Below are positions 34,609 through 36,343 of a stretch of 64,000 bases of DNA, one piece after another; position 1 is the stretch's first letter, and the number at the start of each line of letters is the position of its first letter. Made by a program: the position numbers and the translations under genes. Source of the DNA: Chloroflexota bacterium (GTDB lineage Bacteria; Chloroflexota; Anaerolineae; Anaerolineales; Villigracilaceae); NCBI GenBank assembly GCA_016219545.1, contig JACRMH010000039.1, positions 1 through 64,000 on the forward strand, in the 5' to 3' direction. Under the pieces are notes generated by a model that was not told the DNA's origin, made no database searches, and saw nothing but the letters and a program-made list of their open reading frames with translations.

Positions 34609-34636
34609 TTGACATCCCGCCATAACATAGTATAAA
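34609..34636 (+). promoter_or_regulatory. Sigma70-type promoter for the spe operon
   Basis: TTGACA-N16-TATAAA. Confidence 0.7.
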
Positions 34637-34653
34637 TGCCCTCAATAGAGTCT

Positions 34654-34731
34654 ATCTGGGAACGCTTCGTTCGTTACACACGGCAAACATCGTGTGGATC
34701 GGGCTGAAGTAAAAAGGTTTTGTTCACAGAT
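34654..34731 (+). ncRNA. Structured 5' leader of speD (candidate cis-regulatory RNA)
   Basis: Closing stem AUCUG-G-GAAC / GUUC-A-CAGAU; internal hairpin CACACG-N8-CGUGUG (34677-34696); possible CUUC/GAAG stem. Confidence 0.55.
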
Positions 34732-34765
34732 GGGTTCTTTATCTTTTTAACCCCCGGAGGTGTGA

Positions 34766-35122
34766 GTGAACGTGACTTTGAAATTGGGAGAGCATTATAT
34801 TTTTGATCTCTCCGACTGCAACCATGAGATTCTCATGGATAGCGAGCGAGCTTATTCGCTGTTTGCGCAAGTGGATGAGGGCTTTTACAAGTTTAGCCCA
34901 CACGGCTTTACCTGTTTTTTGCTGCTCTCAGAGTCGCATGCGAGTTTACATGCGTGGCCTGAGTACGGGTATTGTGCAATTGACCTGTTTACCTGTGCTC
35001 TTGGTAAGGACCTTTTACCTTTGATTCAAAATATAAAAAATGCGCTGGGTGCAGATAACTTTTCCCTGCGCAAGCTGGATCGTGAAGCCGAGATCGAAAC
35101 TAAAATGGCGATCGCTGTATAG
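34766..35122 (+). CDS. speD: S-adenosylmethionine decarboxylase proenzyme
   Basis: LLSESHASLHAWPEYGYCAIDLFTC, with the ES cleavage site; GTG start with GGAGG upstream. Confidence 0.93.
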   Translation: MNVTLKLGEHYIFDLSDCNHEILMDSERAYSLFAQVDEGFYKFSPHGFTCFLLLSESHASLHAWPEYGYCAIDLFTCALGKDLLPLIQNIKNALGADNFSLRKLDREAEIETKMAIAV

Positions 35123-35130
35123 GAATTTGA

Positions 35131-35958
35131 ATGAGCATTTGGTTTACTGAAGAATTACATTCCTATTATCGAAAAGGCATTCACGTTAAACGTGTGCTGG
35201 CAGATGAGCAAACACAGTATCAGCATATCCAGGTTGTTGAAACAGAATTCTTTGGCAACGCGCTGATCATCGATGGCATCATCCAGCTAACCGAACGCGA
35301 CAACATCGGTTATCACGAAATGATCGTGCACGTGCCGATGCTGGCTGTCGGCAAGCCCAAAAGGGTGCTGATCGTTGGCGGCGGTGACGGCGGGTCATTG
35401 CAGCAGGTTTTGAGATATCCCTCCATCGAAGAGGCCGTCGTCTGTGAGTTGGATCAGCGTGTCGTGGATCTCTCACGCGAACACTTCGCTGCTTTCGGCG
35501 ACCCGTGGGCTGATCCTCGTGCCAGACTGCTTGTGCGTGATGCCTTTGGTTTTCTCGAAGAAAACCCCGGTCAATTCGATGTCATCATCTCAGACACCAC
35601 TGACCCGATCGGCATGGCAGAGCGCTTGTTCTCAGACGAGTTTTACAAGTTGATGGTGCGCGCACTCGTCCCCGGCGGGGCGGCGGCCACTCAATGCGAA
35701 CAGCCTTTCTTTGACACTGAGTTGATCAAGCAGATTTATATCTCCGCCAAAGCGCTGACCAAGAATCCCGCTTACTACTACGCCAACATTCCCACCTACC
35801 CGGGCGGCGGTATCGGCTTCATGTATGTCTCGGATACGCCTTGGGAAAATGGTTTGAGAATGCCGTTTCCGCCCGGCGTGAATAATTACATCAACCCTGA
35901 AATCCACAAAGCGGCATTTGCCTTGCCGGAATTTTTCAGGAAAGAGCTTTATGGATAA
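35131..35958 (+). CDS. speE: Spermidine synthase
   Basis: ERDNIGYHEMIVHVPMLAVGKPKRVLIVGGGDGGSLQQVLRYPSIEEAVVCELDQRVV..DVIISDTTDPIG. Confidence 0.96.
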   Translation: MSIWFTEELHSYYRKGIHVKRVLADEQTQYQHIQVVETEFFGNALIIDGIIQLTERDNIGYHEMIVHVPMLAVGKPKRVLIVGGGDGGSLQQVLRYPSIEEAVVCELDQRVVDLSREHFAAFGDPWADPRARLLVRDAFGFLEENPGQFDVIISDTTDPIGMAERLFSDEFYKLMVRALVPGGAAATQCEQPFFDTELIKQIYISAKALTKNPAYYYANIPTYPGGGIGFMYVSDTPWENGLRMPFPPGVNNYINPEIHKAAFALPEFFRKELYG

Positions 35959-36343
35959 GTTATTTGTAAAGGATAGAATGGAAGAAAAAATTGAATACTG
36001 GGGAGTGTCATCCAATATTGATCTGTACGAATGCGATTTGGCGCTCATGCAAAACGCAGATGCCATCCGTGAGTTCGTGAAAATCCTCTGTGACCGCATC
36101 AAAATGCGCCGCTATGGAGAAACACAGGTGGTCTTCTTTGGGGATGAACCTCGCGTGCAGGGATTTAGCATGACCCAGCTTATCGAAACATCCCTCATCT
36201 CCGCTCACTTTGCAGATGCCAGCCGCGCGATCTATCTTGATGTTTTCAGTTGCGCCCCCTACGATTCCCAGGATGCGGCTAAATTTGCAGCGGACTATTT
36301 CAAGGCCGCCCACTATAACGTCAATGTAGTGAATCGCCGCTAA
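35951..36343 (+). CDS. SpeD-family paralogue lacking the canonical ESH processing motif
   Basis: GFSMTQLIETSLISAHFADASRAIYLDVFSCAPYDSQDAAKFAADYF; start overlaps the speE stop (ATGGATAA). Confidence 0.8.
   Translation: MDKLFVKDRMEEKIEYWGVSSNIDLYECDLALMQNADAIREFVKILCDRIKMRRYGETQVVFFGDEPRVQGFSMTQLIETSLISAHFADASRAIYLDVFSCAPYDSQDAAKFAADYFKAAHYNVNVVNRR

Follow-up and report, generated by a model that had tools for sequence, protein, structure and literature searches.

Very few RNA regulators are known for the genes of polyamine biosynthesis. In translational riboswitches of the adenine (add) type the 3' strand of helix P1 also helps to hide the Shine-Dalgarno (SD) sequence. One spermidine riboswitch was validated in 2023, and its authors expect further classes (PMC10853860). 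This RNA, a four-stem variant of SAM-I, is found in Gram-positive genera and acts through transcription termination (Salvail et al. 2023, PMC10853860). The odc1 motif (uORF-25-1; PMC8632094) of the Alphaproteobacteria carries its RBS inside the right shoulder of P1, and possesses a pseudoknot and a conserved 11-amino acid uORF.

We describe here a structured element in the speD leader of the window, by which we mean the whole 64,000-nucleotide stretch of Chloroflexota DNA that was analyzed. It resembles the spermidine riboswitch (PMC10853860) in being a structured leader 5' of polyamine biosynthesis genes, including speD and speE, and in its narrow distribution, but it is unbranched, belongs to the Chloroflexota, and has neither an Rfam match nor a supported terminator. 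With the odc1 motif (PMC8632094) it shares the extended hairpin in the leader of a polyamine gene (ornithine decarboxylase in the case of odc1) and a proposed control at the level of translation, but the RBS within P1, the pseudoknot and the conserved uORF are not seen in it. Its likeness to the add-type riboswitches lies in the proposed logic of a putative switch, in which formation of P1 would free the SD sequence, while the fold is different and there is no junction. We regard the element as a candidate for a new lineage-restricted family of cis-regulatory RNAs of the speD-speE-speD2 operon, which probably controls the spermidine-making genes and is possibly a riboswitch. As a clade-wide leader which is supported by covariation and found only before speD, it offers a testable candidate from a phylum in which few cases of RNA regulation are known.

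Organization of the locus

The operon, in the order speD, speE and a gene for a second AdoMet_dc protein, and its leader are laid out as follows:

34609 to 34636 (+), sigma-70 type promoter predicted from the sequence (TTGACA 34609-34614, 16 nt, TATAAA 34631-34636)
34646 to 34741 (+), conserved structured leader element, the whole covariance-model match, with the support of the model scores and of folding stability (z = -5.12)
34739 to 34755 (+), U-rich tract, then AACCC(CC); the AACCC at 34749-34753 could pair, with weak support, with GGGUU 34732-34736
34756 to 34760 (+), Shine-Dalgarno sequence GGAGG of speD, from the sequence
34766 to 35122 (+), speD, S-adenosylmethionine decarboxylase proenzyme (start GUG; 118 aa; PF02675, E 2e-23)
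35131 to 35958 (+), speE, spermidine synthase (PF01564 and PF17284)
35969 to 36343 (+), speD2, second AdoMet_dc-family protein (PF02675, E 2.7e-21)

The element is a long irregular hairpin which follows directly upon the promoter. The latter is strongly conserved: in each of the 48 leaders whose upstream sequence is long enough, the -35 and -10 hexamers are the same and stand exactly 16 nt apart. Transcription is predicted to start a few nucleotides 5' of P1, and the SD sequence lies 18 nt 3' of the end of P1. The window speD is 27 nt (9 codons, AVRDSGLTV-like) shorter than that of relatives (L076; 127 aa), which reflects either a deletion that keeps the reading frame or a mistake in the assembly.

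At most of the loci that carry the element speE stands close behind speD, at some a divergent second aminopropyltransferase homolog intervenes, and several of the loci have a second AdoMet_dc gene. The SpeD2 encoded by a cluster of this kind in Anaerolinea thermophila functions as a pyruvoyl ornithine decarboxylase (PMC10407285). The product of 35969-36343 is a candidate for the same activity (SpeDC-like), and the window operon may, with this predicted activity for its third gene, make spermidine from ornithine and SAM.

Structure of the leader

The hairpin was found by RNAalifold on the speD leaders of same-genus loci, which SpeD searches in relatives had yielded and which could be aligned by eye. 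From its base it consists of P1, P2, a helix of two pairs (CG/CG), a 3x3 internal loop (UUA/GAU) and P3, the loop of which ends in ACA-UC. On the 3' side P2 and P1 are separated by an A-rich bulge (J2/1), which measures about 10 or about 22 nt. The parts in the window are:

34647 to 34663 (+), P1 5' strand, of a 17-position helix with a nearly invariant basal AGAGUCU
34665 to 34668 (+), P2 5' strand CUUC, pairing with 34706-34709; both-side changes in three of the four pairs
34672 to 34673 (+), 5' side (CG) of the two-pair helix, partner CG at 34700-34701; the first pair shows C-G/U-A exchange
34674 to 34676 (+), conserved 5' side (UUA) of the internal loop; 0-1 parsimony changes per column in 46 sequences
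34677 to 34696 (+), P3 hairpin, 34677-34683 with 34690-34696; both-side changes in four of the seven pairs
34697 to 34699 (+), conserved 3' side (GAU) of the internal loop, with few changes per column in the alignment
34706 to 34709 (+), P2 3' strand GAAG, pairing with CUUC
34710 to 34721 (+), J2/1, A-rich single-stranded bulge, with short and long forms across species in the alignment
34722 to 34738 (+), P1 3' strand, including the near-invariant GGGUUCU

A sequence-only reading of the window had picked out the promoter and the SD sequence, both of which stand, together with three pairings which all find their place in the fold: AUCUG-G-GAAC/GUUC-A-CAGAU is the middle of P1, CACACG/CGUGUG is P3, and CUUC/GAAG is P2. 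It had taken them for a multi-stem junction, but there are no branch points in the covariance model, and the element is instead a single, irregular, unbranched hairpin.

Folded alone (34644-34741) the element reaches -35.8 kcal/mol as compared with -19.8 ± 3.1 kcal/mol for shuffled sequences (z = -5.12; none of 200 shuffles was as good), and five homologs, which with the window element make six species, give z values of -4.7 to -6.4. The longer 151-nt stretch has a z of only -1.49.

Covariation and sequence conservation

The sequence-only reading had named two outcomes that would refute it, a match to a known Rfam family and a lack of conservation or covariation of the stems in related speD leaders. 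Neither was observed, and the stems keep their pairing in these leaders through strong compensatory change. Across 46 distinct sequences 96.9% of the pair cells are standard and both-side changes occur at 16 of the 30 pairs; P1 alone has 97.7% of its cells paired and both-side changes in eight pairs. The double-change cells number 112; shuffles give 28, and sliding the partners gives no more than 23. Since relatedness can mimic compensatory change, a tree-aware null was constructed on an independent tree from the speD coding sequence, the columns being simulated independently with an equal number of changes. On this tree 64 compensatory double-change events were counted against 10.0 ± 2.9 in the null (maximum 19; none of 500 simulations reached 64), and 97.0% of the cells were paired against 88.5 ± 2.1%. 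In the stricter per-pair APC-G test with the tree-aware null no pair fell below E = 0.05, the best having E = 0.067, so that the claim of covariation rests on the aggregate test. The support is good for the structure in its entirety but does not extend to individual pairs.

The changes are unevenly spread, the columns of the UUA and ACAUC loops having 0-1 each and those of P1 up to about 10. The loop-side ACAUC of P3 (34687-34691) is identical in 46 of 46 sequences. Almost no variation is seen at the base of P1 (AGAGUCU/GGGUUCU), which includes a G.U pair (46/46) and two U.G pairs (44/46 and 41/46). These wobble pairs exist only in the RNA of the plus strand, which speaks in favor of an RNA rather than a DNA palindrome; an operator at the DNA level is disfavored, as the invariant G.U and U.G would be mismatches on the other strand.

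Distribution

Covariance models were built from 21 leaders (R1) and from 46 (R2), and whole genomes were searched with both; in its own genome the window element scores 77.9 bits with R1 and 92.1 bits with R2. Among 152 genomes of the family, 67 have a speD match and 51, in six genera, carry the element. All but one of the 53 matches lie immediately 5' of speD and on its strand, the remaining one being at a contig end, and the element-bearing family genomes have no copies away from speD. In 48 of these 52 the distance to speD is 22-30 nt; the other four carry insertions, in one instance within the element, and lie 111-183 nt away.

There are 16 speD-bearing family genomes without the element. 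In three of them the speD match is fragmentary, twelve come from five other genera (g33, g37, g38, g113 and g115), and the last, G001, is a member of the window's own genus. No element was found outside the family in 301 genomes of the order, 396 of the class and 400 of the phylum (overlapping samples, strict filters). The element is clade-restricted, all six carrier genera falling within one family of the Anaerolineales.

The natural variants provide ready-made controls. Upstream of speD in G001 (L003/L081) a perfect 10-bp hairpin, GGTGACAGTC-N11-GACTGTCACC, replaces the element; a TTGACA promoter lies 5' of it, the GGAGGTGTGAGTGAACGC is the same, and promoter, SD sequence and start are retained. 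Inserts some 40 to 180 nt long interrupt other leaders at a small number of sites, within the element in L086, L110 and L060, and between the U tract and the SD sequence in L109, L123 and L100, which suggests insertion hot spots that the element tolerates. In L109 and L123 the insert, of about 100 nt or longer, separates the U tract from AACCC-SD and leaves the element intact, and in L100 it spares the near-SD sequence ACACC-SD.

Proposed mechanism

The reading that we prefer, with a probability of about 0.4, is that the element is a cis-regulatory RNA which controls translation by a competition between P1 and a hairpin that hides the SD sequence. Situated at the 5' end of the speD-speE-speD2 transcript, it would act in cis upon the expression of the spermidine pathway. 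The inner domain, which comprises P2, the UUA/GAU loop, P3 with its ACAUC loop, and the A-rich J2/1, would serve for recognition and P1 would be the switch helix, its wobble-rich base (GAGUCU/GGGUUC) competing with the alternative hairpin. In the latter GGGUU would pair with AAYCC and the pyrimidine-rich 3' strand of P1 would cover the SD sequence; with P1 formed the ribosome site would be free, and with P1 open it would be hidden.

In many species the freed 3' strand of P1 can indeed pair with AAYCC and the SD sequence, which would explain the frozen GGGUU and its wobble partners; in the window itself this strand pairs poorly with the SD sequence. Measured against permuted controls the sequestering hairpin is no better than expected (median percentile 0.28 for a permuted spacer and 0.49 for a permuted P1 strand), and the P1/SD switch, which can be drawn in most sequences, is possible but without statistical support. 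That result counts against such a switch, as do the best per-pair E of 0.067, the unbranched fold, the narrow phylogenetic range, and the exchange of the element for a plain perfect hairpin in G001. In its favor are the pairing kept by compensatory change, the near-frozen loops, the position only before speD, and the best P1-free structures, which are on average only 7.7 kcal/mol weaker. The speD leaders share no ORF and no conserved leader peptide, and the inserts of L109, L123 and L100 all spare the sequence next to the SD.

The molecule recognized would be a metabolite of the pathway, that is SAM, decarboxylated SAM (dcSAM), ornithine/putrescine or spermidine, and with the P1/SD platform a ligand that stabilizes P1 would turn expression on. 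We hold as tentative the reading of the element as a new riboswitch class with a fold unrelated to the SAM riboswitches, in which an unbranched hairpin senses SAM, decarboxylated SAM or a polyamine and controls the complete ornithine-to-spermidine operon of these Chloroflexota. Like a riboswitch, it forms a structured domain that is conserved in the 5' leaders of related metabolic genes. Because the platform is without statistical support and ligand binding is putative, we have filed the element as a "structured cis-regulatory leader" and not as a riboswitch. The sequence-only reading, which had offered a riboswitch or a sensor of SAM or polyamines, is upheld as regards a structured speD-speE leader of a new family but not as regards the sensor, the hairpin being unbranched and its platform lacking that support.

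Two further pairings were considered and rejected. The ACAUC loop is complementary in most species to GGUGU just after the SD sequence, but this pseudoknot suffers uncompensated breaks in L106, L119, L056 and L070, and its SD-side sequence is kept in the element-free G001. Pairing of the A-rich J2/1 with the U tract is of low complexity, and the connecting segment looks too short to bridge a 17-bp P1.

Alternative explanations

The hairpin might be a binding site for a protein, either an RNA-binding regulator dedicated to it or one of the operon's own products, which would contact ACAUC and UUA/GAU without any sensing of a small molecule. We consider this somewhat unlikely but a serious rival. 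An unbranched hairpin with frozen loops and a stem that varies in sequence but not in length is in keeping with it, and restriction to one lineage fits a protein-RNA pair. The protein partner is putative, and large inserts within the element are tolerated in L086, L110 and L060.

That the structure is a 5'-terminal hairpin which mainly stabilizes the mRNA or insulates the ribosome site, and carries no signal, is unlikely, though it too is a serious rival. P1 does begin within a few nucleotides of the predicted transcript start in every species, and the simple hairpin of G001, with promoter, SD sequence and start kept, would suit such a role. It leaves unexplained, however, the near-invariance of the internal and hairpin loops in 46 species and the invariant basal wobbles.

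A transcription attenuator, in which P1 and the U tract would form a terminator governed by the inner domain as product feedback by spermidine, is improbable. A U-rich tract follows directly after P1 in nearly all species (on average 8.2 of its first 12 nt are U), and in L123, L109 and L100 it stays with the element and not with the SD sequence; yet element-free speD leaders are likewise U/A-rich before the SD. The terminator scores (d'Aubenton-Carafa type) have a mean of -18.4 with two of 49 positive, as compared with +37.8 for the trp control; three strongly negative values derive from a mislocated tail, which leaves the picture unchanged. A pattern scan for terminators found none.

Last, the element might belong, as a divergent member, to one of the known classes of SAM or spermidine riboswitches (a SAM-I variant or others). 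This would fit the gene context (PMC10853860) but is highly improbable, as three diverse members gave no match to the SAM families at E up to 10 and the four-stem SAM-I junction architecture is absent from a model without branch points. In Rfam 15, at E up to 10, no family other than chance-level matches was found at the window element or at two diverse homologs. Literature searches outside subscription journals and preprints returned no description of the element.

Other leader RNAs

The speD leaders of the Thermoflexales type (L134, L135, L139 and L141) have a different conserved structured leader about 60-100 nt 5' of the start, with TGCCAGATGAAGCC...GGCTTCGCCACCTCTGGCAG..., then a hairpin and GGAGGTG, CCACCUC being complementary to the SD sequence. 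It has no Rfam match in L134, and its folding gives z = -2.37; we consider it a candidate for a second speD leader RNA. Elsewhere in the window, the Rfam scan at gathering thresholds gave as its sole match a TPP riboswitch (RF00059, 17838-17944 (+), 66.8 bits), away from the element. A match to the c-di-GMP-II-GAG riboswitch (RF03169, 47 bits) was seen at 10926-11027 of L137, from Bellilinea caldifistulae.
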